DNA of 64,000 nucleotides, from assembly GCA_023265135.1 (NCBI GenBank), contig JAHFUM010000001.1:313632-377631 (forward strand). The letters are read 5' to 3'. A program made the translations under genes and the position numbers. The notes under the pieces are model-generated. The model worked only from the letters and a program-made list of their open reading frames with translations. It had not been told where the DNA came from and searched no databases. Each line of letters begins with the position of its first letter. The stretch's first letter is position 1. Source of the stretch: Nitrosarchaeum sp. (lineage in GTDB: Archaea; Thermoproteota; Nitrososphaeria; Nitrososphaerales; Nitrosopumilaceae). Shown here in pieces: positions 35,244-52,546 of this stretch.

Positions 35244-36044
35244 CTAGTTTTTTGTTTTCGAGTTCAATTGTTTTTTAAAAGCTATGCCCAAAATAGGATT
35301 TATTAGATAAGGAAAAGTATGTTTCAGCCATACAGCTACACGAATTACTGAAGGAACAATAATTTCTAATCGTGGAGAATTTGCAGCTCTTAAGATTGCT
35401 TTTGCAACGGTTATATCACTTAGTGATGTTGGTGAATACTTAGGCATTTTTTTAAAAGAAGGATGATCAAAAAAGTTAGTTCTAACCATTATTGGACTTA
35501 CAACTGTTATTCCAACACCTGTTCCTTTAAGTTCATGTTTTAGACCTTCTGAAAAACCCAACATTGCAAACTTTGATGCACAGTAAGATGCAATCCCAGG
35601 TAAACCAAAATTTGCTGCAACAGAAGCCACATTAACAATATGTCCAGATTTTTTTTTAAGCATTGATGGAAGAAAATTTTTGATGCAGTAAATCATACCA
35701 AAATAATTTGTTGCCATCTGTGATTCTATTTCTCCAGTTGTTAAATCAGAAACAAAGCCATAGATTGCAAATCCAGCATTATTTACTAAAATATCAATAG
35801 AACTATATTTTTCTAAAACAATCTTTGACATTTTTTCTACTTGTGATTTATCAGAGATATCACATTCACAAACAAAAGTGGAAATGTTGTATTTTTTTAG
35901 ATCATTGGCTATTTGTTCTAATTTTTCTTTTCTTCTTGCAACTAGAATTACATTAGAACCATTTTTGGCAAATTGAATCGCAGTTTCTTTACCTATTCCA
36001 GATGAAGCACCTGTAATTAACACAGTTTTATCTTTAAAATCCAT
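35244..36044 (-). CDS. Short-chain dehydrogenase/reductase
   Basis: 266 aa classical SDR. VLITGASSGIGKETAIQFA holds the TGxxxGxG cofactor motif. ILVNNAGFAIYG is the NNAG motif, and IASYCASKFAMLGFSEGLK contains the YxxxK active site with an upstream serine (NVASVAANFG). The substrate is unknown. It appears to be the last resident gene before the accessory island, which begins about 27 bp upstream of its start. Confidence 0.9.
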   Translation of the reverse strand: MDFKDKTVLITGASSGIGKETAIQFAKNGSNVILVARRKEKLEQIANDLKKYNISTFVCECDISDKSQVEKMSKIVLEKYSSIDILVNNAGFAIYGFVSDLTTGEIESQMATNYFGMIYCIKNFLPSMLKKKSGHIVNVASVAANFGLPGIASYCASKFAMLGFSEGLKHELKGTGVGITVVSPIMVRTNFFDHPSFKKMPKYSPTSLSDITVAKAILRAANSPRLEIIVPSVIRVAVWLKHTFPYLINPILGIAFKKQLNSKTKN

Positions 36045-36070: not shown

Positions 36071-36083
36071 AGTGGTTTCTATG
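36071..36083. other. Candidate left attachment site (attL-like direct repeat)
   Basis: AGTGGTTTCTATG occurs here and again at 54283-54295 next to the integrase gene; with flanks the match is 16 of 17 (ATARAGTGGTTTCTATG). The two copies bracket the accessory block of about 18.2 kb. This copy runs straight into the first dispersed palindromic repeat at 36077. Confidence 0.4.
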
Positions 36084-36109
36084 TGCTTATTTTGCCATAT
36101 AAACACAAA
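36077..36109 (+). repeat. Dispersed dif-like imperfect palindrome, copy 1
   Basis: The core is two inverted 10-bp arms, TGTGCTTATT and TATAAACACA (8 of 10 positions symmetric), around a 6-bp centre TTGCCA, preceded by TTCTA. Three further near-identical copies occur in the same orientation at 37072, 40141 and 45139. This copy ends 8 bp before the stop codon of the minus-strand gene at 36118. Confidence 0.85.
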
Positions 36110-36117
36110 TTTTAAGG

Positions 36118-36282
36118 CTATTTTGAGATTTTCTTTTTTAAATTGTTGATTTCTTTTTGTTGCGCATCTGTTCTTTTTTTGAGAGTGTCTATTCTAGATT
36201 TTTGCTGTGCAAGATCGCTTTCTAGTTTCTTTATTCTTCTGGATTGGTCCTGTTCATGTTGCTTATTTGATAATTGGGCCAT
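36118..36282 (-). CDS. Small coiled-coil protein (54 aa)
   Basis: Encodes MAQLSNKQHEQDQSRRIKKL followed by a heptad-like, Gln/Lys-rich helix ending NLKKKISK. The whole product looks like one coiled coil. The frame is complete with ATG and TAG. A dispersed repeat copy abuts its 3' end. Function is unknown; dimerising partner or anti-regulator roles are possible. Confidence 0.6.
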   Translation of the reverse strand: MAQLSNKQHEQDQSRRIKKLESDLAQQKSRIDTLKKRTDAQQKEINNLKKKISK

Positions 36283-36405
36283 AACTTAGTATAAAATATC
36301 TGAACTTAAGAATATCTTTCAAACAAATTGTAGGTTATTTTAAAAAGAAATTTAGAAGATTTTGTTATGTCTGAGTTCAAATTGGTTTAGGGGCATAACG
36401 TATCC

Positions 36406-37065
36406 TCATTTGAGGGATTTTGCGATTTGAAGCAGATCATCCATAGGAACAAATCCGTTTAATCTGTACAGCATTCCAGAAGAATCATCCACAACAAATA
36501 CTGTTGTTGGAGTATCGTATGTCTCTTCATTTATGGTTTTATTGTTTTCATCTATGGCGATTGATTTTCCTATCGATGCAGGAATTCCAATTATCTGTTT
36601 TCCGTTAGAAACAAATGAAACTATTTTATCTTTAGCTGGCGAGTTGTTTGCAAACATATTTGCAAGTTCTTTACCGTCTTTAACTTCAAATGCCGTATCT
36701 AATGGTCCAGCAATAATTTCTATAACTCCATCTCTTAGGGTTGCTTGTGCGCCACATACATTACCATCAAAATATTTCAGTTGAACTCTTGACGGTTCTA
36801 CATATTCAGCATCTTGGAGCGTATAGCCTTCCAGTAAAACAGTAGGTGTCAACACAGGAAATGGAGCTTTGTTTTTTACGGCGGACAAGTTTTGAGCACA
36901 TATAGTAGCTGCGCCCGCATTCATGACGATGTTATATGTTTTCAAGCCAAATATTTTCTTTGGAATATAGGTCACCTCATCATTTAGAGATAGAAATACA
37001 CTTCCAGTAACACCAATAACCGCAATTGAAAGTATTATTGATACTAATATCTTAGTATTCATCAA
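36406..37065 (-). CDS. Membrane-anchored extracytoplasmic protein, DUF4367-like
   Basis: 219 aa with an N-terminal signal anchor (ILVSIILSIAVIGVTGSVFL). The external part contains PTVLLEGYTLQDAEYVEPSRVQ and ends GFVPMDDLLQIAKSL, the layout of DUF4367-like domains (LPxGY near the start, ELIKIAxSL at the end). It faces the related gene at 37149 across a spacer of about 80 bp holding repeat copy 2. The role is unknown. Confidence 0.7.
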   Translation of the reverse strand: MMNTKILVSIILSIAVIGVTGSVFLSLNDEVTYIPKKIFGLKTYNIVMNAGAATICAQNLSAVKNKAPFPVLTPTVLLEGYTLQDAEYVEPSRVQLKYFDGNVCGAQATLRDGVIEIIAGPLDTAFEVKDGKELANMFANNSPAKDKIVSFVSNGKQIIGIPASIGKSIAIDENNKTINEETYDTPTTVFVVDDSSGMLYRLNGFVPMDDLLQIAKSLK

Positions 37066-37071
37066 TCCTAC

Positions 37072-37105
37072 TCTACATGCTTATTTTGCCATATAAACAC
37101 AAAAA
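37072..37105 (+). repeat. Dispersed dif-like imperfect palindrome, copy 2
   Basis: TCTACATGCTTATTTTGCCA followed by TATAAACACAAAAA. It differs from copy 1 by ATG for GTG at the left arm tip. It is the only copy not at a gene 3' end: it lies between two divergent genes, 7 bp upstream of the minus-strand start at 37065, where its ATATAAAC could also serve as a TATA box for the plus-strand gene at 37149. Confidence 0.85.
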
Positions 37106-37148
37106 ATTGAATTAGAAGACATTAAACTGTGATTGGGTTGCTTTTCTA

Positions 37149-37754
37149 TTGGAGAAAAAGAAAATGAAAACTAGGCTTTTGATAATAATTATTGCAGCTA
37201 TTTCTGTAGGTGCGTTATCATTTATTTTGAGTTCATTCCAAGACGAGGGCTGCACCAGTACGGGTAGAGGGGATGAAAACATGCCAATACTTCAGCAATT
37301 TGGTGGGAAGCAAGCATCCACACTAGAAGAAGCAACTGCAATTGCAGGTCACGACATCAAAGCCCCAAAATACTTGCCACCAGAATATAAAATCAGAAAT
37401 ATTTCCATTTCGGATAGCAGGATAGTCATCTTGGCATCAAAGTATCCTGTGACTAACGATACTCGCTATGATTACTATGTTTTTCAAGATAAAGGAATTA
37501 TCATTTATTATGATTATTTGACAGAAATGGATCATTCAAATTTTATCAAGTCATTTTTGGATAATACCCCAAAGGTTTGGAAAAAATTTGACGTAAATGG
37601 GATGCCTGCATTAGGATACGAGACAACCAGACAGCAGGATACCACAGCTTGCTTTGTAGCAATACTTCAATTTTATCAGAATCAGACAAGCATTATGATA
37701 ACAGGATTGTTTTCTACAGACGAATTAATAAAAATTGCATCAGGCATTGGATAA
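37149..37754 (+). CDS. Membrane-anchored extracytoplasmic protein, DUF4367-like
   Basis: 201 aa with an N-terminal signal anchor (LLIIIIAAISVGALSFIL). The external domain shows KAPKYLPPEYKIRNISI, an internal DVNGMPALGYE and the C-terminal FSTDELIKIASGIG, a close match to the DUF4367 layout. It appears to be a diverged paralogue of the divergent gene at 36406. An ATG two codons in (MKTRLL) is an alternative start. Confidence 0.72.
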   Translation: MEKKKMKTRLLIIIIAAISVGALSFILSSFQDEGCTSTGRGDENMPILQQFGGKQASTLEEATAIAGHDIKAPKYLPPEYKIRNISISDSRIVILASKYPVTNDTRYDYYVFQDKGIIIYYDYLTEMDHSNFIKSFLDNTPKVWKKFDVNGMPALGYETTRQQDTTACFVAILQFYQNQTSIMITGLFSTDELIKIASGIG

Positions 37755-37872
37755 TGCGATAGTTTGTAGAATTGTGAAATATTGAACAAACTTTTTCAAA
37801 TAATTTCAATATCTAAATTGATGTGGAGTTTTCATTTTTTAAAGTTATTTGAGTTTAAGTTGTGTTTCTATT

Positions 37873-38478
37873 TCATTTTCTTTTTACCAATAATACTGTC
37901 ATTATGACAGAGACTATTATTGCAATCAGTATGATTACTAAAATCAAGAACTCAGGCAATCCTTCTGATGCACTAACATATTCATCTTTTTCAGACGTAT
38001 TGTTGGATGAAACTATTACTGTCTCATTATCAACATGTTGCGGTATTGGATCAAAGTCAAAATTTAGAGGATATGTATTTGGTGCCTGTCCTGAAAAATA
38101 GTAATACTGCCAGACATTATGGTTTTGAATTGATTTCTCCACCCACTTAAATAATTGGCCGTTTTCTATTGCATTATTCATTTCGATTTTTTTGGATTCC
38201 ATAAACTCTGCGCCCTTGTAATCATAATATTTGGCCCATCCATCAACAAGATCTTGTGGATATTTGTGATCTATTACTAAATCTATACAAGGCGCATCAG
38301 GCCAATCAGTGTTTACAATGCAGATTCCAAATGCATGAGGAAGAATTAACCCAGTAAGCCCTGTAAAAAATAAAACCAATACAAAATATTTCATGGAGAG
38401 TAAAATCTGTAAGATCCTCATAAAGTATCCTAATCTTTGATTAGATATAAAAAAAGGGTTTTTATCGGAGTATCTCAA
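37873..38478 (-). CDS. Secreted protein with C-terminal membrane anchor, unknown function
   Basis: 201 aa. The probable start is internal (MKYFVLVLFFTGLTGLILPH), giving a signal peptide. The external part has paired cysteines (FGICIVNTDWPDAPCIDLV) and the tail is a hydrophobic anchor (FLILVIILIAIIVSVIMTVLL) with basic end KRK. It overlaps the next upstream gene's stop by 17 bp, so it belongs to the operon with the genes at 38462 and 39049. Confidence 0.7.
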   Translation of the reverse strand: MRYSDKNPFFISNQRLGYFMRILQILLSMKYFVLVLFFTGLTGLILPHAFGICIVNTDWPDAPCIDLVIDHKYPQDLVDGWAKYYDYKGAEFMESKKIEMNNAIENGQLFKWVEKSIQNHNVWQYYYFSGQAPNTYPLNFDFDPIPQHVDNETVIVSSNNTSEKDEYVSASEGLPEFLILVIILIAIIVSVIMTVLLVKRK

Positions 38479-39052
38479 GTAGAGAACTTTCCGATATTGT
38501 ATTTACATGACTGATAGCTTTTCCTTGCTCAAGTTTGTATATTCCATATTCGCCAGAAACTGGTTCAAAGTATTCTCCATCAAATGGTGCATGAAGGAGT
38601 ATTACCAAGTTATCACCAATTTGATATTCAGGAATTTCAGACACTACTGTAAATTCATTGAGTGCGCCACCCAATACTTTGAATTTGTACAAATTAGTTG
38701 AGGAGGAACTCTTGATGTTGTCTGTTACCTGTAACTCGTATACACGATAGGGCTGAGTTTGAGCAATTTTTGGAGAATCTTCCTTAACATAATTTCCAAA
38801 CTCATCCCTGTATTGAATTACTTGATATTTATCAACAATTTTTCCTTTAACCACTGCATCTGCCATATGTTTCATCTCTGTAAGATCTGTAGTGGTGTAG
38901 GAATTAAATACCAATATCTCATTTTGATTATCCTTAAGATTTGTTGTATTTACATTGTTTGAATCTAGTGTAGACGTAAAATATACACTGCCAATAACAG
39001 CTATTGTTATAACAGCAAGAATTGAAAATTTGTTTTTGTTTTTCATTTTCAA
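38462..39052 (-). CDS. Secreted or anchored protein, unknown function
   Basis: 196 aa. N-terminal signal anchor (FSILAVITIAVIGSVYF), then a domain with ADAVVKGKIVDKYQVIQY, YRVYELQVTDNIK, and IGDNLVILLHAPFDGEYFEP. This pattern resembles a bacterial exported family of unknown function. Its start overlaps the metalloprotease stop (ATGA), which suggests coupled expression. An inhibitor or chaperone role for the protease is possible but speculative. Confidence 0.7.
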   Translation of the reverse strand: MKMKNKNKFSILAVITIAVIGSVYFTSTLDSNNVNTTNLKDNQNEILVFNSYTTTDLTEMKHMADAVVKGKIVDKYQVIQYRDEFGNYVKEDSPKIAQTQPYRVYELQVTDNIKSSSSTNLYKFKVLGGALNEFTVVSEIPEYQIGDNLVILLHAPFDGEYFEPVSGEYGIYKLEQGKAISHVNTISESSLLEILR

Positions 39053-39645
39053 TAATTCGCCGCCATCATAGAGTCATCGTGTGTGTCAGGACTTCTTCGT
39101 ACTTGATTCTCAGCTATAGAGCCATACATAACAGAAATGGTATTTGTACTATGTTTCATATTTGCAAGATGTCCAAATTCATGTCCTGTTGCACTTCTCC
39201 AATCATATCCGTTAGTTGATGTGTCTTGTGCAGAATCTTCCCATGAAAGATTTTTGTTCATGGCAATGTAGGCTCCAATAGGCACACCATTATTAATGGT
39301 AATAACGGTTAGACCTGCTCCGGAAACTCCGCTAGTCCAGGCATAAACTGGTGTACCGCTAGATGCAGTCTCAGTTAAACTCCATGTACTACCGGAAATA
39401 CCCTCCCATACATTTGAAGATGTTGTCAAGTTAGAACAAGGTGAAACGTGACTAGTTTTTGTAATTGTAGTCAAACTAGAAGTACAAAAGTAATCTTGCG
39501 ATACATCTGCCCATTTCCATGAATATGAATTGGTTGCATATGCTTCACTTCCAATTAGAGAAAAGGCGCTTATAGCAATTGTTGCTATCATTATTGTTGT
39601 CATTTTTGAAGTCATTTTTTTGTTTTTAATAATCATTATTTTCAT
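39049..39645 (-). CDS. Secreted metzincin-type zinc metalloprotease
   Basis: 198 aa with a signal peptide (MIATIAISAFSLIGSEAYA). The zinc-binding motif is HEFGHLANMKHS, i.e. HExxHxxxxxH. The usual glycine of HExxHxxGxxH is Asn here. A Met-turn candidate, ISVMYGSI, follows about 10 residues later. The protein resembles matrixin-like (M10) archaeal peptidases. It heads an operon with two exported proteins, and a perfect inverted repeat lies in its upstream region at 39672. Confidence 0.82.
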   Translation of the reverse strand: MKIMIIKNKKMTSKMTTIMIATIAISAFSLIGSEAYATNSYSWKWADVSQDYFCTSSLTTITKTSHVSPCSNLTTSSNVWEGISGSTWSLTETASSGTPVYAWTSGVSGAGLTVITINNGVPIGAYIAMNKNLSWEDSAQDTSTNGYDWRSATGHEFGHLANMKHSTNTISVMYGSIAENQVRRSPDTHDDSMMAANY

Positions 39646-39671
39646 ACCATAAGAATTGCCTAATAAGTAGA

Positions 39672-39690
39672 ACTTAGTCTGGGACTAAGT
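39672..39690. promoter_or_regulatory. Perfect inverted repeat upstream of metalloprotease gene (candidate operator)
   Basis: ACTTAGTC-TGG-GACTAAGT, 8-bp perfect arms around 3 bp, lies 27-45 bp upstream of the metalloprotease start. The size and spacing suit binding of a winged-helix dimer such as the product of the adjacent gene at 39725. As RNA it could instead form a hairpin. Confidence 0.55.
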
Positions 39691-39724
39691 AATCCTTTTA
39701 AACTGTTTATTTTGGTAATATTTT

Positions 39725-40003
39725 TTAATTTTTTGTTTCTGAAAATCTGCGAAGATAAAAAGACATCCCAAGAGCACTTACACTAACGATTTCAGTATTG
39801 TTACTCGTTTCTCTATTTACCAGATCAATTAATTCAAGAAATTCCACATATCTGATAAAATAATCATAGTTTAGATTTGTCTTTCTTGCAAGTGCTGTCT
39901 TCTTTTCTGGACCGTTTTGAATTAATGAATAAAGTATACGTTCTATAATGCTGAGATCTACCCGTTGTAATTGTTTAGTTGTAATCATACCCATATCATT
40001 CAC
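39725..40003 (-). CDS. Winged-helix DNA-binding protein (92 aa)
   Basis: A single archaeal winged-helix domain: IIERILYSLIQNGPEKKTAL, then recognition-helix region TNLNYDYFIRYVEFLELIDL and a wing around VSVSALGMSFYLRRF. It resembles the small HTH_45-like regulators abundant in thaumarchaea. It lies immediately upstream of the metalloprotease operon on the same strand, making it a likely local regulator. Confidence 0.8.
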   Translation of the reverse strand: MNDMGMITTKQLQRVDLSIIERILYSLIQNGPEKKTALARKTNLNYDYFIRYVEFLELIDLVNRETSNNTEIVSVSALGMSFYLRRFSETKN

Positions 40004-40121
40004 AAACCAAACTCATCAGAAAAATCTAGTAAAGATTCCCGTATGTAATATCTTGACAGCACATCAATGCAAAACATATTTTTTTCTTGGAAATAACCTT
40101 CAAATAGTTTCATTAGAGATA

Positions 40122-40139
40122 CAGCTAAAATTTTAGCTG
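40122..40139. promoter_or_regulatory. Perfect 18-bp palindrome
   Basis: CAGCTAAAATTTTAGCTG is self-complementary. It sits between the winged-helix gene start (40003) and repeat copy 3, about 40 bp beyond the stop of the HD gene (minus strand). It may be an operator for the winged-helix gene or a terminator for the HD operon. Confidence 0.55.
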
Positions 40140-40140
40140 G

Positions 40141-40175
40141 TTCTACATGCTTATTTTGCCATATAAACACAAAAA
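40141..40175 (+). repeat. Dispersed dif-like imperfect palindrome, copy 3
   Basis: TTCTACATGCTTATTTTGCC then ATATAAACACAAAAA. It is identical to copy 2 over the core. It ends 1 bp before the stop codon of the HD phosphohydrolase gene (minus strand, 40177). Confidence 0.85.
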
Positions 40176-40176
40176 A

Positions 40177-41499
40177 CTATTGAATTGGTGCTATTTTTGT
40201 TAGATTCACTTTAAATCTATCAGATATTTTCGAGGCTATTTTTTTCCTAATCTCTTTATCAATTGGACCAAACACCAGATATTTTTCTATATCCTTACCC
40301 GATATTGGAGAAATTGTTTCAAGATCATAGATATCATCTCCAACTCTAAAGAGAAGTTCTCCTTTTTTGTATAGTTTATTCTTTATTGCTGATTTATGAA
40401 AAATCACTTCATATGATTCTAGACCTAATGAATTGCTAATTTCAGATGCAATTTTTTGATAATCATCAGGTTTCATTTTCATTAATTCATTTGCTACATC
40501 TGCATCCTTTTCTAGATCCTTTGGGGTAAATTCACAGACACGTTTCAATAATTTTCTTTTTTTAATATTATTTAGGATTAGTTTTGAGGTCTTAGCTTTA
40601 TCATTATCAATGATTTTACGATATATTGAAAAGTCATCTAGAGATTTGTAAAAGTTAAGAAATTCAGAATTAGTTTTTGCTGGATCAAATTTAAATAAAT
40701 CCTCATCAAAAATTTTTTCTTCATAAATAGCAATTTCAAGAGCTTTTAGAAACATTTGATCAGCTGCCAATCTTGCATGATGTTCATAGACTTGGACATG
40801 CATCAAATAACGTGCTAGTCTATAATTTTCAAGAGAATCTTTTCCTTTATTGGTAACACAGATTTGAGAGCCTTTTACTGTTGAAGTAAGAGTATGAAGA
40901 ATTCTACTAAAATCAAATTGTCCATATGCTACACCAATATGATAAGAATCTCGTCTCAGATAATCTAATTTGTCAGCATCAATACCGCTTGAAACTATAT
41001 CTGATTGAAGAGATTTTGACGGTTCTTTATAAGATTTAATTTCTTTACTTAATAATTCTACAATTTCATTTCGTTTTGAACCTAAAATTGAATCAAGCTC
41101 AGAATCTTCTTTTATAATTATTTTGGAAATTGCCTCATGAGGCTCTTCTATTGTTGGATTAGTTTTTTCCATTATATGTTCAAATAAGTGTGAAAATGGT
41201 CCATGACCAATATCATGAAGCAAGCAAGATAGTCTTATTTTTTCAATATCATCCTGCTTGTTAAAGCCTAATTCGTTAGCCATAATATTTGAAACATATG
41301 TGGTTCCTAGTGAATGCTCAAAACGAGTATGTGTTGCAGAAGGATATACAACATAAGCATGAGAAAGTTGTTTAATAAATTGAAGTCTCCTAAAAATTTC
41401 AGTGTCTATTATTTTAGTTTCTAATTCAGATAGATCAATAAAACCATAGAGAGGATCTCTTATTGCTTTGAACTTAAAATAATTATGTGATAGAGACAA
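40177..41499 (-). CDS. HD-domain phosphohydrolase (SAMHD1/dNTPase-like)
   Basis: 440 aa. The N-terminal HD domain shows HTRFEHSLGTTYVSNIM (His of the motif), LLHDIGHGPFSHLFEH (HD pair) and SGIDADKLDYLRRDSYHIG (distal Asp), the signature of the dNTP triphosphohydrolase/SAMHD1 branch. A C-terminal domain of about 180 aa follows. It overlaps by 17 bp the upstream gene at 41483, whose product resembles YwgA/Panacea proteins. Bacterial YwfO-type HD enzymes are encoded near ywgA. dNTP hydrolysis is inferred from the family. Confidence 0.88.
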   Translation of the reverse strand: MSLSHNYFKFKAIRDPLYGFIDLSELETKIIDTEIFRRLQFIKQLSHAYVVYPSATHTRFEHSLGTTYVSNIMANELGFNKQDDIEKIRLSCLLHDIGHGPFSHLFEHIMEKTNPTIEEPHEAISKIIIKEDSELDSILGSKRNEIVELLSKEIKSYKEPSKSLQSDIVSSGIDADKLDYLRRDSYHIGVAYGQFDFSRILHTLTSTVKGSQICVTNKGKDSLENYRLARYLMHVQVYEHHARLAADQMFLKALEIAIYEEKIFDEDLFKFDPAKTNSEFLNFYKSLDDFSIYRKIIDNDKAKTSKLILNNIKKRKLLKRVCEFTPKDLEKDADVANELMKMKPDDYQKIASEISNSLGLESYEVIFHKSAIKNKLYKKGELLFRVGDDIYDLETISPISGKDIEKYLVFGPIDKEIRKKIASKISDRFKVNLTKIAPIQ

Positions 41500-42049
41500 G
41501 ATCTAGTTTTTGAAGTAATTCAATTCCTGCTAATGCATCATCTGCAGAAACATTCCAATCAAAATCTTTTGCAATTGTTTCTACATCTCTTGCTGTGTAT
41601 TTACCTTGAAGTCCGTCTTCAGAGCTTGTTAAAATGTAATATGCTTTTGCTGCATATGATAAAGGAGTGGGCTTTAGTTCACAGTGTTCTTTACAAATTT
41701 TTATAGTGTTTGCAATAGTTCCAAATTCTTTTGGATATTTTTTTTGAGCAGTTTCAGCATATTTGATTCCATTTTCAGTTAATTTGTATCTATAAGTTTC
41801 ATAATAACTAGAGATTATATTTTCTTCAACATAAGAAAATTCAGACATATCTGCTAATGCAGTTGATACTTCTCGATTAAATGGCCCATAGAAATGATGG
41901 ATGTAATTTGATATATCCAAATTTGGAATCATTACAGTATGAAAGTAAATTAATTTCTGTACTGTTGTTTTACTGATAATTTCATCATTATTTGCATGTA
42001 AAGTTAATGCAATAGCATCAAATACATCCAAGCCCATATCTAGTTTCAA
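41483..42049 (-). CDS. YwgA/Panacea-like protein paired with HD hydrolase
   Basis: 188 aa. Key segments are ISKTTVQKLIYFHTVMIP, YIHHFYGPFNREVSTALADM and YRYKLTENGIKYAE, close in pattern to the LQKLxYF...GPF...L...G layout of YwgA and DUF4065/Panacea proteins. Panacea domains serve as antitoxins in some toxin-antitoxin systems. Its stop overlaps the start of the HD gene, so the two are coupled. The family call is from pattern recognition only. Confidence 0.65.
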   Translation of the reverse strand: MKLDMGLDVFDAIALTLHANNDEIISKTTVQKLIYFHTVMIPNLDISNYIHHFYGPFNREVSTALADMSEFSYVEENIISSYYETYRYKLTENGIKYAETAQKKYPKEFGTIANTIKICKEHCELKPTPLSYAAKAYYILTSSEDGLQGKYTARDVETIAKDFDWNVSADDALAGIELLQKLDLVSIT

Positions 42050-42238
42050 AAACGCAGGTGATGATTTAAGCTTACTGAGGAATTTTTAATTGATCCAAGT
42101 GTGATCGCAAATTGACCTTAATACTAGATCATGAATTTTTTAGATAAAATCATAAATTTTTATAAATTTCTTAATGGTTTTGAGGTTATTGTAAATAAGA
42201 GAGATCATATTTTTAGATGAGATTATGATGATAGTAAT

Positions 42239-42847
42239 GTGAGTGATTTTAGGGTAAATTGTCATTTATGTGATAAAGAAATTATTCGAAAACCTGCAGA
42301 AGATGGCACTTGGCCCATGTTCAATCTAGATGAGACAAATCACGAACATCTGGTAATTTCAGTTAGTACAATTTTATCTGATATTCATTATAAAGATAAT
42401 GAAGACAAAACAAAGCTAATTGGAGAGATGACATTAATGGAACTCGAAGATCGTATAAGAAGACTATCTTCACAAGAAGCTGCTATGAAAATAGGCTCAT
42501 ATTTACATGCAACAAACGGTTTTGTAAGTAGAGGATTCAAAGAAGATTTCATTAAAAAAAATGTTATTGTTAGTGGAAATGAATACTATATCACAGGTAG
42601 TTTGGATGATAAAAACGAGGACACCGTAGTTGAAGCAAAATTCATTGCTTCTAGACGACAATTAAAAAAAATTCGTCAATATGCTAAGGATCAATGCGAT
42701 ATTTACGGTTGGATTACAGGATTGCCAAAAAGTAAATTATTTTTACATATTATTGATGAACATAAAAATGAAGATGAATCACATTTTAATAATATAGAAA
42801 GGGGAGAAGAATTAGTAAATAATTATATTAAAAATAATTTGAGATAA
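42239..42847 (+). CDS. PD-(D/E)XK (Cas4/RecB-like) nuclease-like protein
   Basis: 202 aa from a GTG start. An N-terminal CHLC pair (VNCHLCDKEI) may bind metal. The centre holds YYITGSLDDKNEDTVVEAKF: an Asp followed by the EAK triad, i.e. PD-(D/E)XK motifs II and III. Then comes YAKDQCDIYGW, matching the Q-x3-Y motif of RecB/Cas4 nucleases. A single-strand or restriction-type nuclease is likely. No cas1/cas2 or repeat array is nearby. It lies within the island, divergent from the HD/YwgA-like pair. Confidence 0.68.
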   Translation: MSDFRVNCHLCDKEIIRKPAEDGTWPMFNLDETNHEHLVISVSTILSDIHYKDNEDKTKLIGEMTLMELEDRIRRLSSQEAAMKIGSYLHATNGFVSRGFKEDFIKKNVIVSGNEYYITGSLDDKNEDTVVEAKFIASRRQLKKIRQYAKDQCDIYGWITGLPKSKLFLHIIDEHKNEDESHFNNIERGEELVNNYIKNNLR

Positions 42848-42970
42848 TAATTTATTATATTTTATTTCTTGAACACTAAATTTTAATCAAAAAATATTCT
42901 AATAGTTATGAATAGTTAACTCAATTACAAACTTTGAATGTGTTGTAATAAGTTACATCGACATGATTCA

Positions 42971-43414
42971 TTACCAATCAAATATACTATTTTTCTTAGG
43001 TTTCTTTTTAGTTCTCATTCTAGTGATTGATATATTAGAATCCTTGGCATAGTCACGTACATCTTTAGGAATTTTAGTTTTCTTGGCAACTATTAATACT
43101 CCTTTCTTTGCATAATTTGGATGACCTTTGTATTTTCGTACTTGATCAACGTGTTTGAATTCAAGTTTCTTGACATTTTTTGCATCTCCAACAATTCGAT
43201 CATGTGGATTCTTCTTTGAATACCCTACAAAATCAGGTCTAGTATGAGTAGATTTTGAATATTTTTGTGTCTCAACCTTGTATCCTTTAAAATGATTTGA
43301 AGTCTTTCCTTTTTTCTCTAGAGTTTTCCAATGATTACCTACAGCGACTCCATTTTTCTTATGTCTTTTTGGTTTTGGTGTACTAGTTCCTAAAATAGAA
43401 TCCCAAAAACCCAT
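42971..43414 (-). CDS. Small basic PD-(D/E)XK-like protein (147 aa)
   Basis: A very basic N-terminal third is followed by TRPDFVGYSKKNPHDRIVGD, then AKNVKKLEFKHVDQVRKYKG, the order PD...(x)DAK...Q...Y expected for a restriction-like nuclease core. A beta strand (AKKGVLIVAKKTK) follows. The product is short for a nuclease but similar in size to Holliday-junction resolvase-type cores. It is divergent from the tiny basic protein at 43485. Confidence 0.6.
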   Translation of the reverse strand: MGFWDSILGTSTPKPKRHKKNGVAVGNHWKTLEKKGKTSNHFKGYKVETQKYSKSTHTRPDFVGYSKKNPHDRIVGDAKNVKKLEFKHVDQVRKYKGHPNYAKKGVLIVAKKTKIPKDVRDYAKDSNISITRMRTKKKPKKNSIFDW

Positions 43415-43484
43415 GAAATAGAATACTGTTAATGGGTTATGAGCATACCTAAATTTTTAAATAATATTTTGTTCTAAACAACCA

Positions 43485-43655
43485 ATGCCTGAATTCTTGG
43501 CAAAGAAAAAGAAAACAAAGACAAAGCGACCTGTAGAATTCAAGACTACCAGTGGAAAAAAGATAGAATTCAAAGCCAGACGAAAGCCACAGAGAAGAGT
43601 CAGAGTGAAATTCAAGTCTGAATCAGAAAAGTCTTGGTTTGAGAAGTTATTTTAA
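43485..43655 (+). CDS. Small highly basic protein (56 aa)
   Basis: Starts MPEFLAKKKKTKTKRPVEFK and continues with KKIEFKARRKPQRRVRVKF, ending in KSWFEKLF. About 40 percent of residues are Lys or Arg, so nucleic-acid binding is likely. It is divergent from the nuclease-like gene at 42971 and shares the basic, KPK-rich style of that protein's N-terminus. No family is recognised. Confidence 0.6.
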   Translation: MPEFLAKKKKTKTKRPVEFKTTSGKKIEFKARRKPQRRVRVKFKSESEKSWFEKLF

Positions 43656-43774
43656 ATTGATTGAATTTGTAATCTGTGTTGTCTAGATCATTAGTGTGAT
43701 CTTATCATCAATAATAAGTAAAAAAAAATAGATCATTCTGATCTATTAAACCCAAACTACCTCTACAGAAGATC

Positions 43775-44050
43775 TTGCAATCATCTAATTTAGAACATAG
43801 AATTTTAGATTGGAATGAGGAAGGAAATCATATTCAAAAAATTCTTTTAGATTATGATTGGAAATATAGAGAGAAAATTTGTACAAATTGCCCCCTAGAG
43901 ACACAAAAAAAATTAGAATGTTTTAGAGTAAATAATTACAAAAACAACATACAAGAAACGCATTGTAGAAAAATGGATAAAGCTAGAACTCAAAAATATA
44001 GAAAGTTAATTACAAAATTTATACAGTTTCATCCATTAAGTAATAGATGA
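43775..44050 (+). CDS. Hypothetical protein (91 aa), cysteine-containing
   Basis: The only start is TTG at 43775. The product has LLDYDWKYREKICTNCPLET, then LECFRV and THCRKMDKART, four cysteines that could form a metal site. It is strongly charged. It overlaps the 3' end of the convergent gene at 44036 by 15 bp. The reading frame is plausible but unsupported by family evidence. Confidence 0.5.
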   Translation: MQSSNLEHRILDWNEEGNHIQKILLDYDWKYREKICTNCPLETQKKLECFRVNNYKNNIQETHCRKMDKARTQKYRKLITKFIQFHPLSNR

Positions 44051-45028
44051 TAGAACTGAATATAGATCAGGTTTTGATTTTATAAATTTAGAATAATATG
44101 TTTTGTTAACAATATGCGGAATTGATAATTCAAGTTGAGATATTTGAGAATTGATTGAATGTGCTCTACTTTGTACATTTGAGATTTGAGTAGTTTCTTC
44201 AAAAGTATGAGTTTTTGAATCAAAATTAAGAATTTTCATCTTAGGTTTAGGCTTAGATTTTGTTTTATGATTTCTAATAGTGGGATAACCAAGAGATGCA
44301 GTGTGAACTCCATATAGATATACTATAGAAGTAAGGGAGATAGGATTTGCATTACTAAGATATCGTTGGGAAATTCCTACAACATTACACCAAATATCTA
44401 CTCCATGAATCTTTTTTGATAATTCTATCCAGTTTACTTGTTGATCATAGATAGAACGATAAACAACATTGAATCTTTCAAAACCATTATCAATTAATTT
44501 TTGGATTTTTTCTCCAAACAAACCTATAGTTTTAATTCCTATATCCACAGTAGGACTGACTACATATCCATCGTTGTTGCTACGTAATTCCAGTATTTGT
44601 TTTTCAAATTTTATTGCACTTTGTTCTATGTTAGATTCATAATCAGAGATTATTATAGCACCTGCTTGTTTTTGAATATCAATAATTGCTTCTCTTTCTT
44701 GTTCTGTTGGAAGATATTTTGGATAATATTGATAATAAAAATCCCATAATATAGTTGGATATTTTTTGATTAATAATTGATAATTATTTATGATGTTTTG
44801 CTTTTTATTAGAAGTGATATCAATTTTTTTTCTTGGTCTGTATACATACTGTGAGGTGGTACAATTTAGTTTAATTTTTGCATGTTCAGCATCATCAAGC
44901 TCACTTTGATGAGGAGATAGTATAGGAAAATTTGAATTCCAATGCCCTAAACTTGCAGATGATGCATTTGAATAAATGGAGTATAATTTTCCAATATATT
45001 CATCAGCACCAATATTTTTAATATTCAT
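44036..45028 (-). CDS. Hypothetical protein (330 aa), possible TIM-barrel-like centre
   Basis: I do not recognise the family. The middle shows alternating strand/helix phrases (AGAIIISDYESNIEQSAIKF; IGLFGEKIQKLIDNGFERFN; WIELSKKIHGVDIWCNVVGI) suggestive of a TIM barrel, loosely like tRNA-guanine transglycosylase relatives used in DNA modification. That idea is weak. No signal peptide or membrane segment is seen. It stands alone between the dispersed repeat copies 3 and 4. Confidence 0.65.
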   Translation of the reverse strand: MNIKNIGADEYIGKLYSIYSNASSASLGHWNSNFPILSPHQSELDDAEHAKIKLNCTTSQYVYRPRKKIDITSNKKQNIINNYQLLIKKYPTILWDFYYQYYPKYLPTEQEREAIIDIQKQAGAIIISDYESNIEQSAIKFEKQILELRSNNDGYVVSPTVDIGIKTIGLFGEKIQKLIDNGFERFNVVYRSIYDQQVNWIELSKKIHGVDIWCNVVGISQRYLSNANPISLTSIVYLYGVHTASLGYPTIRNHKTKSKPKPKMKILNFDSKTHTFEETTQISNVQSRAHSINSQISQLELSIPHIVNKTYYSKFIKSKPDLYSVLSSIT

Positions 45029-45138
45029 CTACACTTATGATGTTTTCAAGTATTTAATGGAAATCAATGATCGATTTTTTACAAATAGTAGAGGAACTTT
45101 CAATCAGGATTATTTTTTAGTGATCGCATGTAAAATGC

Positions 45139-45169
45139 TTCTATGTGCTTATTTTGCCATATAAACAAC
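45139..45169 (+). repeat. Dispersed dif-like imperfect palindrome, copy 4
   Basis: TTCTATGTGCTTATTTTGCC then ATATAAACAAC. The left part is identical to copy 1 and the right arm ends CAAC instead of CAC. Its last base is the first base of the stop codon of the minus-strand gene at 45169, so the site again abuts a gene 3' end. Confidence 0.85.
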
Positions 45170-45486
45170 TAAAAAAGAGATTTTCTTATCTTTCCACCAG
45201 TCAAAACTTGATCCAGTATACCAATTCCTGCTATAACTAGAACAGTTGCGCCCAATCTACTTTCTGCCATATGTTTTAACAAAGATTCTACAGAGTTGTG
45301 GGGATCATCTTTGTCATAATGAATTTTGCATATGCCAGTCGCAGAGTTACATTCTGCATGCCAATGACCGTTTCTAAAGTGAGTCATTGAGAGTTTTTCG
45401 CCTAGAGACTGACTCCAAGCAGGATCCCTTTGAAAGTCCTTCATGTAGTACAAATCCCATTCATAATTGTAATTGTTGTTTATCAT
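45169..45486 (-). CDS. Hypothetical protein with C-terminal hydrophobic segment
   Basis: About 105 aa if translation starts at ATG 45486. I prefer this start because an AT-rich TATA-type box (45506-45518) lies about 26 bp upstream, as expected for a leaderless archaeal mRNA. A longer frame to 45567 is also open. The product has YYMKDFQRDPAWSQSLGEKL, HWHAECNSATGICKIHYDK (two Cys, several His) and a hydrophobic end (ATVLVIAGIGILDQVL). No family is recognised. Confidence 0.55.
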   Translation of the reverse strand: MINNNYNYEWDLYYMKDFQRDPAWSQSLGEKLSMTHFRNGHWHAECNSATGICKIHYDKDDPHNSVESLLKHMAESRLGATVLVIAGIGILDQVLTGGKIRKSLF

Positions 45487-45557
45487 GTAGGTAGTTCTCA
45501 TCAGAGTATATAAATATTTTGATACTACTTTAGTACTATTATAGTATGGAATAAGGA

Positions 45558-45743
45558 TCAGGCCCATCTAAGAGGAGTTTTGCAACTAGGGCAATGAGAC
45601 GTGCCTTTCCTAAGAATATGACCGCATGAAGGACAAACGTATTGTTTTTGTTTGGTTGCTTCATTAATAATTTTGATTACTACTGCTGCACCTACAACTG
45701 CCAAAATCAATCCAATTAGTGCATTAGTAGATGAACCGCTCAT
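45558..45743 (-). CDS. Small membrane-anchored zinc-ribbon protein (61 aa)
   Basis: One membrane helix (LIGLILAVVGAAVVIKII) followed by a double zinc knuckle, YVCPSCGHILRKGTSHCPSC. Its ATG overlaps the stop of the ribbon-helix-helix gene (45740), so they are coupled. Such TM/zinc-ribbon proteins are common in archaea, but their role is unknown. Confidence 0.75.
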   Translation of the reverse strand: MSGSSTNALIGLILAVVGAAVVIKIINEATKQKQYVCPSCGHILRKGTSHCPSCKTPLRWA

Positions 45744-45937
45744 TTCTTAGCCTCTTTTGCAGTTTTTTCTAGATCGCTGATAAATACAGTGATTATTTTT
45801 ACAATTGATTCGTTTAATGATTTGAACATTTCAAGTTCTACTAAATGATCTAAAAATGTCGCTTGATATTCAGGTAATCTTAATACAAATTGCCTTTCAT
45901 TTAATTTGGCTTTCTTTGGTCTTTTCTTTGATACCAT
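45740..45937 (-). CDS. Ribbon-helix-helix-like DNA-binding protein (65 aa)
   Basis: A basic leader (SKKRPKKAKLNERQ) precedes FVLRLPEYQATFLDHLVELE and SLNESIVKIITVFI, the strand-helix-helix order of RHH repressors. It is first in a two-gene operon with the zinc-ribbon membrane protein. A TATA-like ATAGTATCATT lies just upstream. It is probably a local or plasmid-type regulator. Confidence 0.7.
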   Translation of the reverse strand: MVSKKRPKKAKLNERQFVLRLPEYQATFLDHLVELEMFKSLNESIVKIITVFISDLEKTAKEAKK

Positions 45938-46010
45938 AATGATACTATATCTTCAAAGTTTAAAACCATTCTATTATGATTTTGTTTTTTGGCATAATTT
46001 TACTCAAATT

Positions 46011-46244
46011 TTATCTGTAGTATCGTGATAAAGGAATAAAGATCAGTCCTGCAAGAAGAAGCTCTAACCCAGCTAATCGTGAACTTCCAATAATATCGGA
46101 GATTACTTTATCATTTTGGTAAATCGATAAATTATCTAATCCAGTATATGCATAGAAACCATACACAATGTTTGGTGTAAACAAGACCAAAACTGGACCC
46201 ATTATCAAAAATATTATTCCAAAAACAAACAATATTCCGTTCAT
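46011..46244 (-). CDS. Small two-helix membrane protein (77 aa)
   Basis: Two hydrophobic segments (ILFVFGIIFLIMGPVLVLF; LAGLELLLAGLIFIPL) flank a short external loop. It is divergent from the winged-helix gene at 46325, which may regulate it. No family is recognised. Confidence 0.65.
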   Translation of the reverse strand: MNGILFVFGIIFLIMGPVLVLFTPNIVYGFYAYTGLDNLSIYQNDKVISDIIGSSRLAGLELLLAGLIFIPLSRYYR

Positions 46245-46324
46245 ATGAGTATATTGTTTTAATAGTATAAAAAGGTTAGTAGGGGCTAACTAACTATATA
46301 ATGTGGCAATATTATAACATCATC

Positions 46325-46990
46325 ATGGGAAATTTCAGTAATACAAAACTCCAAATTTTAAGAATGTGTATTAAAACAAAAACATGGACAGACATAATTG
46401 AACAAACTGGATACTCGAAACCCACAATAAAATCCCATATCGACAAATTGATGCTGGAATCATTATTGGAAAAGACTGATAATGGATACAGAACTACATC
46501 AAAGGGAATTGAACAAATTAGTCTGAGACCGAATAGAAGAGATTACGCATCACAAGAAAAGATACCTTCAGAAGTACATGAGATGATTAGTGATGCAATC
46601 TTTCCTGGACTAACACTCACAGAGAAATTAAGTGGAATGTTTGCTGAAGGGTTGTTTAGAAATAAAGGTATGATTAAAAAAGTAAGATTGTATTTAGATG
46701 ATTTATCGAAAATAATGCGTGATTCTGTTGTTGTTTGGTTACCTCCAAATATAAAATTTGAGAAAGATGCATACAAGATAGTGAATCAACTTATTTCAAA
46801 ACAAATCAAGATAGTTGAAAAATTTGAAGATAAAGGTAGAATGACAATCATCATTGATTTTGATCTTCCGTTGGCATTTGACAATGTAATAAACAATGAA
46901 GAAGATCATGAAATAAAACAAAAATTAACTGAAAATAGAGATGAGATATTGGAAACACTGTACAAGAATTGGTCTAAATTAACAAAGTGA
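46325..46990 (+). CDS. Winged-helix transcription regulator (about 221 aa)
   Basis: The N-terminal domain is a winged helix (LQILRMCIKTKTWTDIIEQ; YSKPTIKSHIDKLMLESLLE; GYRTTSKGIEQI). The remaining 140 aa are helical with a conserved-looking FPGLTLTEKLSGMFAEGLF. The start at 46325 is chosen because the box ACTATATAAT lies 28 bp upstream, fitting a leaderless mRNA; an ATG at 46301 overlaps that box. An inverted GTTAG/CTAAC pair (46275-46290) lies above the box. Confidence 0.75.
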   Translation: MGNFSNTKLQILRMCIKTKTWTDIIEQTGYSKPTIKSHIDKLMLESLLEKTDNGYRTTSKGIEQISLRPNRRDYASQEKIPSEVHEMISDAIFPGLTLTEKLSGMFAEGLFRNKGMIKKVRLYLDDLSKIMRDSVVVWLPPNIKFEKDAYKIVNQLISKQIKIVEKFEDKGRMTIIIDFDLPLAFDNVINNEEDHEIKQKLTENRDEILETLYKNWSKLTK

Positions 46991-47005
46991 TCTATAAATC
47001 ATTCA

Positions 47006-47029
47006 TGTGTTTTTTAAAATAAGCACAAA
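47006..47029 (-). repeat. Diverged, shortened copy of the dispersed palindrome (opposite orientation)
   Basis: TGTGTTTTTTAAAATAAGCA followed by CAAA reads on the minus strand as GTGCTTATTTT then AAAAAACAC. The left arm is identical to the four main copies, the centre is shortened by about 4 bp. It lies 16 bp after the stop of the plus-strand regulator at 46990, again at a gene 3' end. Confidence 0.5.
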
Positions 47030-47055
47030 ATAGATCTGATTAATGATTGCGGATA

Positions 47056-47310
47056 TTATAAATTTTTTAATATTTTCTTTCCAATAACAGTCAACTCGTA
47101 TAGTCGCCCCTTCTTCAGCTTCGGTGTAAGGCAGACAACGAGTTTCTTTTCAACTAGTTCTGATAAAGTATTAGAGATATGGCTTGGGTAGATCTTAGTT
47201 ATCTCTGAAATTGCAGATGGGGTAGATGGTTTGTCTTGCAAGGCGATCATCACTTTTTTGCGGTATTCTGAGGCCAGAACAAAGCCAAGGGTGTATGAAG
47301 TGTCAATCAA
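47056..47310 (-). CDS. Winged-helix DNA-binding protein (84 aa)
   Basis: SEYRKKVMIALQDKPSTPSAISEI, a recognition region YPSHISNTLSELVEKKLVV and a wing (LKKGRLYELTVIGKKIL) make a complete MarR/ArsR-like archaeal winged helix. It is divergent from the membrane-protein gene at 47415, a probable target. Confidence 0.8.
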   Translation of the reverse strand: MIDTSYTLGFVLASEYRKKVMIALQDKPSTPSAISEITKIYPSHISNTLSELVEKKLVVCLTPKLKKGRLYELTVIGKKILKNL

Positions 47311-47414
47311 GTAGCTATCTGGTATCTATTTTGTGTCTGAGGTTTTTGGTATTATTACCAGATATGTACTACTTAATTACATATTTAGTACAAGAAGAAG
47401 ATCAGGGTAAGAAA

Positions 47415-48542
47415 ATGGGAGAAAAGAAGAATGCTGTCATGGGTATTGGTTTTGGAATAATTGCTTTGATTATTTTTGTAACAATTGTAGTTCTTGCAGT
47501 AGGCAATTCAGGTGAAACAAAAACAGAGAACGACGCAAAAGAAACAGCGAAAGATGTTTTGGATGAAGGCACAGATAAGAGGGAATCAACACCAGAAATG
47601 CAAGAGATAGAAAAGACATCTGAGAAAATTGCAAGTTCGATTCCTGAATATCAGAAAACAGATGAAATACTGAAATCATATTCCACAGTTGGAATAATAG
47701 AAGACATACTAGACGACAAGATAACTGCGTTGGATGACAGAATAGAATACCACAGCATGACAGAGCCGAAAGACAGCTTGAACAACGAAGACTTGCTGTA
47801 CATAGTAGGAGAGATAGAGTACGAGGTTACGACCTGCAAACAAAATATGCCTCCGACAGGAATAGGCGGTTTGCTGGAGAATTTGAGATATGATGTTGAG
47901 GACAAGATAAAATCAGGATATGGAAAGGATCCAGCCGTAACGTCAATACTGCAAAGGGCGAAGGAGGCAATCAATGAATATTCAGACTGTTCTAATGTGA
48001 GTGTCGTCAAGGAAACAAAATCAGTAACTCCAGAGACTAGTAGCCAACTCTTTTCACTGCTTCCACAAGAAGATGATCTGAGTTCAGAATGGAAAATTAC
48101 AAAGTCAGCTGATTATAATAAATCTACAAAGAGTTTCTACTACGAGAATGCTGGACAGGTGAATTATGAGAAGAATGTGCACACGATCAAGGAATATCGT
48201 ATGAACATATTCAAATTTTCAGATTCAAAATCTGCCCAAGAGGCATATGATAAAAAGTATTTTGCTGTTAAAGGTGTAGCAGGGCAATGGGTGCCAGGTA
48301 TTAAGAATGGAGTTGTTGTAGCTACTGCAGAATTTGATTTACTTTACCCAGAAATATTACTGATGGACTCTCAGAATTGTGTTGCAGTAAAACTCAGTGC
48401 AGACTACGGGGATTATGATCATTTGTATGGACACTGTTTAGTAAATAATTACCTCATTTATCAGGATGTAACTGGTTATTATCCAGACATGAAAGATGAT
48501 TTTATCAAGATGATGAATATCGCCAAAAGCAAGGTTTCATAG
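47415..48542 (+). CDS. Membrane-anchored extracytoplasmic protein (about 375 aa)
   Basis: The start at 47415 gives a short basic leader and a signal anchor (GIGFGIIALIIFVTIVVLAV). An in-frame ATG at 47364 is possible. The next 100 residues are acidic and helical; the C-terminal 170 residues look globular (FSLLPQEDDLSSEWKITKSA; YRMNIFKFSDSKSAQEAYD). GC content is visibly higher than in the resident genes, consistent with acquisition. No family is recognised. Confidence 0.72.
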   Translation: MGEKKNAVMGIGFGIIALIIFVTIVVLAVGNSGETKTENDAKETAKDVLDEGTDKRESTPEMQEIEKTSEKIASSIPEYQKTDEILKSYSTVGIIEDILDDKITALDDRIEYHSMTEPKDSLNNEDLLYIVGEIEYEVTTCKQNMPPTGIGGLLENLRYDVEDKIKSGYGKDPAVTSILQRAKEAINEYSDCSNVSVVKETKSVTPETSSQLFSLLPQEDDLSSEWKITKSADYNKSTKSFYYENAGQVNYEKNVHTIKEYRMNIFKFSDSKSAQEAYDKKYFAVKGVAGQWVPGIKNGVVVATAEFDLLYPEILLMDSQNCVAVKLSADYGDYDHLYGHCLVNNYLIYQDVTGYYPDMKDDFIKMMNIAKSKVS

Positions 48543-48879
48543 TCGGATAGGATTGTTGTTGATAATCAGGGCTTCATATTGTAAAAAGATCATACACATA
48601 GTATACCGGCTAGTGCTTTTGTAGTTCTAAAATAAATCCAAATTTTTTCACAACTCCCAATGTCCGTTTGTACTAGTGGTCAACGTCGTCATGGTGGTCT
48701 GCGAAACTCTATTGCCTCTTCAAAAGTGAAAAATGCTATGGATATTTTACGGACATAAATACGGAAAAATTGGATATTCAGAACATTACCTTGATGGTGG
48801 ACGTGTAAACTAGGCACGAATTTAGTAATAAATTTCATAAATCATAATAGTAATATATGATATATATGCTATCCATATC
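48543..48879. other. Intergenic region, no convincing gene
   Basis: About 340 bp. Only short frames are present, the longest about 33 codons from 48660. The right end holds a TATA-rich stretch (48851-48868) placed to drive a leaderless mRNA for the ribbon-helix-helix gene at 48880. No RNA gene is recognised. Confidence 0.5.
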
Positions 48880-49050
48880 ATGGTAAAAAAACAAGTAAAA
48901 TCAATCCGACTCTCAGAAGACAACCATAGAAGATTAATAATATTACAAGGGCGAATTCAAGCTGAAGAAGAAGAGATTACTTCGATGGATGATGTGATTG
49001 ACATTCTCATTACGTCTTATGAAATCAGTGGGAAAAAAAGTAAAAAATAA
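48880..49050 (+). CDS. Small ribbon-helix-helix-like protein (56 aa)
   Basis: MVKKQVKSIRLSEDNHRRLI gives the N-terminal basic strand of an RHH fold. LQGRIQAEEEEITSMDDVID and ILITSYEI supply the two helices. The AT-rich promoter (ATATATGATATATATG) lies about 25 bp upstream. Location ahead of an ATPase and within an integrase-bearing block suggests a plasmid-type copy or transcription regulator. Confidence 0.65.
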   Translation: MVKKQVKSIRLSEDNHRRLIILQGRIQAEEEEITSMDDVIDILITSYEISGKKSKK

Positions 49051-49194
49051 TCAGCAAAAGATTCATTTTTTGAAACGCAACTTGTTAATATCTTAGTGTT
49101 GCAATACTATAGTTGTAGCATTCTAATTGATGCTACGGAGATTAGGACAACTCCTCAAGTCCAATTAATTATGTAGTAGGGAGGAAAAGATGGA

Positions 49195-49335
49195 ATGGAG
49201 AAAAGAATCGCATTGAGCAGCGAAACAAAAATGTTCAAAAAGTATTGGAAAGCAGTAACGTCTTATGACGATGTAGTAAACTATATTGTACCACATGCTT
49301 CGGTATGCGATTATTACCGGGAAAACAAAAATTGA
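49195..49335 (+). CDS. Small hypothetical protein (46 aa)
   Basis: Starts MEKRIALSSETKMFKKYWKA and continues with SYDDVVNYIVPHASVCDYYR. A strong Shine-Dalgarno-like GGGAGG (49180-49185) precedes the ATG, unusual in this mostly leaderless genome. It lies between the RHH gene and the ATPase. No family is recognised; the frame is plausible rather than proven. Confidence 0.45.
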   Translation: MEKRIALSSETKMFKKYWKAVTSYDDVVNYIVPHASVCDYYRENKN

Positions 49336-49451: not shown

Positions 49452-49453
49452 TT

Positions 49454-51321: not shown

Positions 51322-51324
51322 TTT

Positions 51325-52542: not shown

Positions 52543-52546
52543 TTAA

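Follow-up and report, generated by a model that had tools for sequence, protein, structure and literature searches.

The 64,000-nucleotide stretch of Nitrosarchaeum sp. analysed here (GCA_023265135.1, contig JAHFUM010000001.1; hereafter the window) contains an island of ~18 kb (36084-54283) in which one short sequence recurs four times, and we consider it best explained, at a probability of roughly 65%, as a composite integrative island at a single attachment site, an accretion array resembling those formed by cis-mobilizable elements (CIMEs). Comparison with related genomes, which are designated by G numbers, shows at the level of sequence that a family of tyrosine integrases inserts at a 13-bp core, AGTGGTTTCTATG, which covers the stop codon of a gene resembling LPG synthase and has an SDR gene as its other neighbour. 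The repeats divide the island into four units, of which the rightmost (D) looks like an autonomous element and the other three (A, B and C) look like accreted units.

The repeat TGCTTATTTTGCCATATAAACA is exact over 22 bp at 36084, 37078, 40148 and 45146, always on the + strand, and 100 dinucleotide shuffles of the sequence contained on average 0.00 copies of it. Identity extends leftward beyond the 22 bp, since TCTAYR precedes them in all four copies, and copies 2 and 3 agree with each other along 35 bp. The claim of an earlier sequence-only reading, that a site of ~30 bp occurs in four near-identical copies on the same strand, thus holds, as does its remark that copies 1, 3 and 4 adjoin the 3' ends of minus-strand genes (a small open reading frame (ORF) with a coiled coil at copy 1, the HD gene at copy 3, with its stop at 40177, 7 bp away, and a 132-aa ORF with its stop at 45169 at copy 4). 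The even spread of copies over the chromosome that the same reading had named as evidence against a mobile array was not seen: in the host genome (1,816,188 bases in 25 contigs) the four island copies were the only ones, with up to three mismatches allowed. Among 200 genomes of the family, matches with 0-2 mismatches were found, besides the host, just in G014 (two copies), G099, G105 and G135, all of the same genus (Nitrosarchaeum). Two bacterial contigs (L064 and L066) with 20-mer matches were taken as chance.

The attachment site was delimited by comparing the SDR flank across 18 Nitrosarchaeum genomes, 13 of which contain at least 800 bp of it. Seven of these 13 (G115, G075, G081, G093, G032, G048 and G061) have an empty site that reads AAAGTGGTTTCTATGATTTTTC or close variants, in which AAAGTGGTTTCTAT or a close variant joins the 3' end of the LPG_synthase_TM gene directly; of the remaining genomes, the insert is short in G087 and small in G105 and G135, and the window, G014 and G099 contain large elements. 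The left ends of these three elements read AGTGSTTTCTATG followed by the 22-bp motif (with one mismatch in G099), and the right core follows at a distance of 18.2 kb in the window, 22.5 kb in G014 and 16.0 kb in G099, where its last base is T. Because the empty sites are continuous through the core, the crossover is placed in the core, GTGGTTTCTATG, and the 22 bp are assigned to the element. In the window, attL is copy 1 (36071-36105, + strand), composed of the core AGTGGTTTCTATG at 36071-36083 and the arm at 36084-36105 and delimited by the seven empty sites; the left core lies 26 bp from the start of a chromosomal minus-strand gene for a dehydrogenase (35244-36044), which we take to be of the SDR family from its sequence, without a family search. 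The core AGTGGTTTCTATG of attR (54283-54295, + strand) overlaps the stop codon of the chromosomal LPG_synthase_TM gene (54291-55307, minus strand; PF03706, E 2.4e-19), the 3' end of which is the target. The variable core base agrees between attL and attR (it is G in the window as in G099, and C in both G014 and G249, for the latter see below). The right part of the motif recurs in inverted form, as TGTCATATARACA, ahead of the attR core; this copy is exact in the window and in G099 and has one mismatch in G014; the inverted arm TGYCATATARACA is likewise exact in the window and G099 and has one mismatch in G014, and the inverted second arm motif TGTCATATAGACA of the window lies at 54254-54266 on the minus strand. 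In G139, which belongs to another genus and has an integrase 57% identical to that of the window, an element occupies the same locus with a diverged arm, TTTCTATTAGGTATTTTTTGTATATAAACA. By these alignments, the crossover falls within the core, to the left of the 22-bp motif and at the stop codon of the neighbouring gene, the 22-bp repeat is the element-side arm of attL with attR at 54283 beside the integrase, and the anatomy is that of a site at which an integrase attaches through a core and flanking arms, unlike a Xer site. A circular form of the element would be predicted to contain the attP CATATATAG-AGTGGTTTCTATG-TGCTTATT. Targeting of a tRNA gene was considered and rejected, the sole tRNA found in the window being at 8763.

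A tyrosine recombinase within the island, also named in the sequence-only reading, is present on the minus strand at 53079-54218 (Phage_integrase, PF00589, E 2e-11), with its 5' end facing attR, and its homologues in G014 (86% identity), G099 (85%) and G139 are all integrated at the same locus. When the island ORFs of at least 50 aa were compared by tblastn with the elements of G014, G099, G139 and G182 and with a region on contig C2 of G014, all matches fell within 47056-54218, to the right of copy 4. A 443-aa backbone protein (49454-50785, + strand) is 69% identical in the G099 element and 38% in that of G139, and has no Pfam match at E<=0.1. For units A-C, neither tblastn similarity to the elements of G014, G099, G139 and G182 nor a match to the 19 query integrases at E 1e-3 was found. 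Because similarity occurs only to the right of copy 4 and A-C are without a detectable integrase, unit D (45146-54283) is read as the probable autonomous integrative element, and A-C as additions on its left.

Unit A (36084-37077) consists of the small coiled-coil ORF and a minus-strand DUF4367 gene (36406-37065), and ends at copy 2 (37072-37099, + strand; degenerate core TCCTACTCTACA plus the 22-bp arm). Unit B (37078-40147) contains a plus-strand DUF4367 gene (37149-37754), a matrixin-like protease gene (39049-39645) with two neighbouring ORFs, and a winged-helix ORF (39725-40003), and is followed by copy 3 (40142-40169, + strand; degenerate core GCTGGTTCTACA plus arm). Unit C (40148-45145) comprises an HD-domain gene (40177-41499), a DarG-C-like (YwgA-like) gene (41483-42049), a weakly Cas4/PDDEXK-like ORF (42239-42847) and more ORFs up to 45028. 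Copy 4 (45140-45167, + strand; degenerate core AATGCTTCTATG plus arm) would be the original left end of the autonomous element. That the sites partition the island into blocks, as had been proposed, is supported, the copies being element-end sequences of an integrase-bearing island. What the sequence offers is, in sum, a defined target that holds an integrase-bearing element with intact attL and attR and, adjacent to it, units without integration genes detectable with the 19 queries, the sequences at the unit boundaries having identical arms and, internally, degenerate cores. Under accretion, A, B and C would be integrase-less blocks that share the left end of unit D and were added successively on its attL flank, each with a left end of its own made up of core and arm; such blocks may arise from decaying elements that keep their ends, and may be mobilized in trans or together with an autonomous element, as in CIME accretion. 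With its outer cores (36071 and 54283) intact, the 18-kb composite would be open to excision as a whole by the integrase.

The same locus is occupied in different ways in relatives. G105 and G135 have ~0.3 kb between the site and a second core, with one small gene that is presumably DUF1059-like, and G069, at a contig end, shows the right part of an insert of this type. In other genera, we examined 16 genomes (G139 apart) in which the site is retained next to SDR and LPG, and which were picked for having the site; the 20 regions were chosen for carrying it, and counts outside Nitrosarchaeum therefore describe states, not frequencies. Insert size was taken from the core to the end of the LPG gene, this end being estimated from partial matches for G041, G151, G190, G030, G157 and G221. 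The LPG end lies just 37-136 bp from the core start in 9 of the 16 genomes, and the other seven (G068, G163, G148, G190, G249, G160 and G073) have inserts of ~0.6-5.2 kb, with a second GTGSTTTCTATG directly before the LPG stop in G068, G163 and G249. The inserts of G068, G163, G148, G190 and G073 (~0.6-2.7 kb) gave no match to the 19 integrases at E 1e-3. The 4.5-kb insert of G249, both cores of which share the variant GTGC, retains a 54-aa C-terminal remnant of the integrase family of the window (L243, insert positions 2046-2207), and that of G160 a fragmented integrase of another type; judged by sequence similarity, these remnants fit a decay of elements into att-bounded remnants. By eye, a ~100-aa protein (MKxLFDENCSP...) of the G163 insert, one of the integrase-less ones, resembles a protein encoded close to attL in the G014 element on contig C6, a hint of shared cargo. 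To judge from these relatives, the SDR/LPG locus is thus a likely hotspot of accessory-gene exchange. Gain and loss of blocks between sites, which the sequence-only reading had predicted, correspond in these relatives to single genes or small blocks that lie between the site and the target gene in some genomes and are missing in others; for the internal blocks of the window itself, no such variation was seen.

The site also occurs at other loci. The pattern GTGSTTTCTATN7TTTTN5ATAAACA was searched in 250 genomes, and 22 sites with 0-1 mismatch were found, recurring in five genera of ammonia-oxidising archaea: 16 of them belong to the SDR locus, and the remaining 6 to other loci (G059, G203, G182, C2 of G014, G228 and G181). 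In G203, at a different locus and in a different genus, an HD-gene remnant that is 69% identical over 77 aa to the HD gene of the window has its stop 8 bp beyond the site, so that the link between this gene end and the site would be older than the island of the window. An ORF follows at 25 sites, with G105 and G135 taken together as one, and at 20 of these the first ORF to the right is on the minus strand, with its 3' end towards the site (the exceptions are copy 2 of the window, G073, G154, G066 and the second G181 site); these directions are based on mechanical ORF calls with overlapping shorter ORFs skipped, and nine sites beside which a gene would not fit were left uncounted. In G181, a single 670-aa ORF lies between two sites of the same orientation, which are separated by 2.2 kb and of which the second has 3 mismatches. 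The G182 element (L123 / G182:C1 ~2017700-2031400, genus g12) is inserted at another core, GTATAAAATGATTTAGAT, upstream of genes that we take to be a riboflavin operon; this site is empty in G233 and G190 and contains tiny arm-like inserts in G074 and G104, and G109 has a possible larger insert at a GTATAAAATGATTTAGAT-type site. A GTGG-type site is present inside the G182 element, ~90 bp in from the left end of the element, as if one unit were nested within another. Two further copies were noted in Nitrosarchaeum: a diverged one together with ~50 bp of the SDR upstream flank at an unrelated locus (G099:C24:86061-86133, L048), and one with the exact arm and the core GTAGTTTCTATG beside the genes of a different integrase-like element (G014:C2:91151-91184, L027:15151-15185), which precedes a minus-strand gene block and for which a right-hand core was looked for and none found.

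Several observations weigh against accretion. The cores of copies 2-4 are degenerate relative to GTGGTTTCTATG while the arms are identical, and at the internal junctions no right-hand arm or intact core was found; as sequences, these copies are unlike clean attL x attP junctions. Tyrosine integrases, by their usual rules, recombine sites with degenerate cores poorly, and the state of the internal cores makes present-day excision of single blocks doubtful; the internal copies are either decayed sites or sequences that originated in another way. No genome among those compared has A, B or C present or absent as a whole unit, so that the stepwise stacking, like the mobility of single blocks, is something we infer from the arrangement of the sequence. 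Arrays like that of the window were absent from 17 other elements, several of them seen partly, when 16-mers in at least three copies were sought. The cores around the G105/G135/G069 insert mismatch at the variable base (GTGG on the left where seen, GTGA or ATGA on the right), which is unexpected for a fresh insertion. With up to three mismatches, the site pattern was found at 58 places and its reversed control at ~59 (table count), so that it is no commoner than the control and 3-mismatch matches are mostly noise. Simple arithmetic for 22 fixed positions puts ~0.15% of chance matches at 0-1 mismatch, the control not being split by mismatches, and weaker sites were used only after a check of context (G249, G221, G157, G154, G073, G066 and the second site of G181). 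The only other 16-mer repeat in at least three copies was in L118 (G139:C3, 9784-10900, over ~900 bp), outside the G139 element. A direct-repeat search for att sites of distant integrases gave no clear result, and nothing was found when IMG/VR was scanned with two patterns.

The Xer/dif layout proposed in the sequence-only reading, and with it the view that the blocks are pdif modules at which a host Xer recombinase acts at the centre of a dyad, is highly improbable. Its inverted 10-bp arms pair at 8/10 positions around a 6-bp centre in copy 1 and more weakly, at 6/10, in copies 2-4; in the other of the 33 aligned sites, pairing is 6-7/10 in the three arm-sharing sites of G014 and G099, 4/10 in the diverged G099 site and 0-6/10 (median 3) in 25 sites of other genera, and G105 and G135, the sites of which are without 2 bp after the core, are absent from this table. 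The core and the ATAAACA arm, unlike the dyad, remain conserved across the aligned sites (six of the 33 rows, namely the three internal window copies, G157, G221 and G030, were excluded from the information profile). The empty sites are without the left half of the dyad and the crossover is placed in the core to the left of the 22-bp motif; the layout was rejected because of the empty sites and the loss of the dyad outside the genus. Among NCBIfam models, archaeal XerA scores best for the integrase, at 63.7 bits far under the cut-off of 220 bits; the scores with XerC (52.7 bits, cut-off 335) and XerD (49.9 bits, cut-off 330) are also far too low, and none of the genome copies, confined as they are to the island, is fit to serve as chromosomal dif. 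pdif modules were compared by their general features. Short same-orientation sites between gene blocks are the likeness, for dif according to passages of PMC2958812; here, however, the crossover lies outside the dyad and the recombinase is, by score, not XerA. Thaumarchaea are stated to lack xerA in a passage of the same source (PMC2958812), and XerA was not searched for in the host genome. Transcription terminators, promoters or an extragenic repeat are about as improbable: copies 1, 3 and 4 do lie at gene ends and the arm contains a TATA-like TTTATATG on the minus strand, but distances to gene starts on the left vary widely, the copies are limited to one island and the sites in relatives lie at the ends of insertions, and this interpretation was set aside because of the insertion boundaries and variable distances.

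An integron-like cassette system that arose by convergence is unlikely, although several observations favour it. In such a system, the integrase would act in trans on small circles, each with a single core-plus-arm site immediately behind a gene, and would capture them at a resident site; the blocks would then be cassettes and not decayed elements. The prevailing ORF orientation at the sites, the single-gene inserts with undetected integrase at the same locus in several genera, the six sites at other loci and the G181 site pair around one ORF would all be expected of it. Against it are the score of the integrase with the integron integrase model TIGR02249 (33.7 bits, cut-off 265), the occurrence of more than two sites per island only in the window among the scanned regions, the integrase remnants of G249 and G160, which point to decay, and again the degenerate internal cores. 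The core GTTTCTA does not by eye fit GTTRRRY, which we take to be the attC box. The idea of a mobile gene-cassette array voiced in the sequence-only reading is partly supported, among other things by the HD-gene remnant beside such a site in another locus and genus; its Xer/dif layout is not supported. In its most specific form, Nitrosopumilaceae would have a cassette capture of their own and of independent origin, in which a non-IntI tyrosine integrase, recognizing a ~34-bp core-plus-arm site directly behind accessory genes, takes up single genes or operons as circles in trans and stacks them at a conserved hotspot; this we regard as a tentative idea, with the odds well against it. It is quite improbable that copies 2-4 mark no insertions and were spread by homologous recombination or duplication, or serve as extra integrase-binding or regulatory sites. 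Identical arms in all four copies with differing cores, and the 35 bp common to copies 2 and 3, would be consistent with this; the core edge TCTAYR, however, is kept along with the arm in each copy, an HD gene end is joined to such a site in another genus, and similarity to autonomous elements is found only to the right of copy 4.

The cargo of the island includes DUF4367 proteins, the matrixin-like protease, and the HD gene, with weak dGTPase-like scores, which overlaps its DarG C-terminal-like partner (window 40177-42049). This pair recurs in all seven other loci compared (one of them cut), with identities down to ~40 and 31%, and may be a defence pair. A homologue of the unit B protease was found in just one further genome among 250 (G206, 38% identity), in an uninformative context.

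The work on ICESt1, which a review of CIMEs and of integrative and conjugative elements (ICEs) cites, is said to concern accretion at a shared att site. As far as the passages of that review that we used go (PMC5704250), CIME/ICE accretion resembles the island in the stacking of integrase-less, att-bounded units beside an integrase-bearing element and in decay to att-flanked remnants (compare G249 and G160); the island differs in its archaeal host, its 13-bp core, units down to one gene, and an arm that is kept while internal cores are degenerate. The ssrA islands of Dehalococcoides are similar in lying in tandem behind one gene, with a short direct repeat between them, and 15 of 31 are without an integration module and were read as possible cis-mobilizable elements (passages of PMC3146451); a serine recombinase and ssrA as target there contrast with a tyrosine integrase and a protein-gene target here. 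Short att repeats, protein-gene 3' ends and tandem integration are shared with thaumarchaeal cryptic integrated elements (PMC6563490) and archaeal integrated elements (PMC8371274), in the passages of which no array of integrase-less units is described. Of these sources, the first describes tandem proviruses and casposons in Thaumarchaeota and states that archaeal counterparts of bacterial classes including integrons cannot be ruled out (passages of PMC6563490); the second, on archaeal tyrosine recombinases, reports in the parts used tandem integration and integrase-less integrated elements, the integrase presumably being lost after integration, and the terms 'cassette', 'arm-type' and 'CIME' do not occur in its text (PMC8371274). 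Archaeal integrons with IntI and attC are known, and according to passages of PMC9668308 share with the island a single site orientation, one integrase nearby and a prevailing gene direction in which the 3' end faces the site; here no integron integrase was found at the cut-off and several units are multi-gene.

No description of such arrays in these archaea was found in the open-licence literature searched. Bacteria are known to have both CIME accretion and tandem islands (passages of PMC5704250 and PMC3146451), and an archaeal accretion island with a hotspot of small integrase-less units would be a variation on this known arrangement. It provides a sequence-defined hotspot with its core and arm, in which empty, near-empty, single-gene, multi-gene and full-element states are found side by side, and makes the gain and loss of accessory genes in archaea with small genomes directly testable with one integrase and a 13-bp core. 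If cassettes do move in trans, the system would be an archaeal counterpart of integrons.

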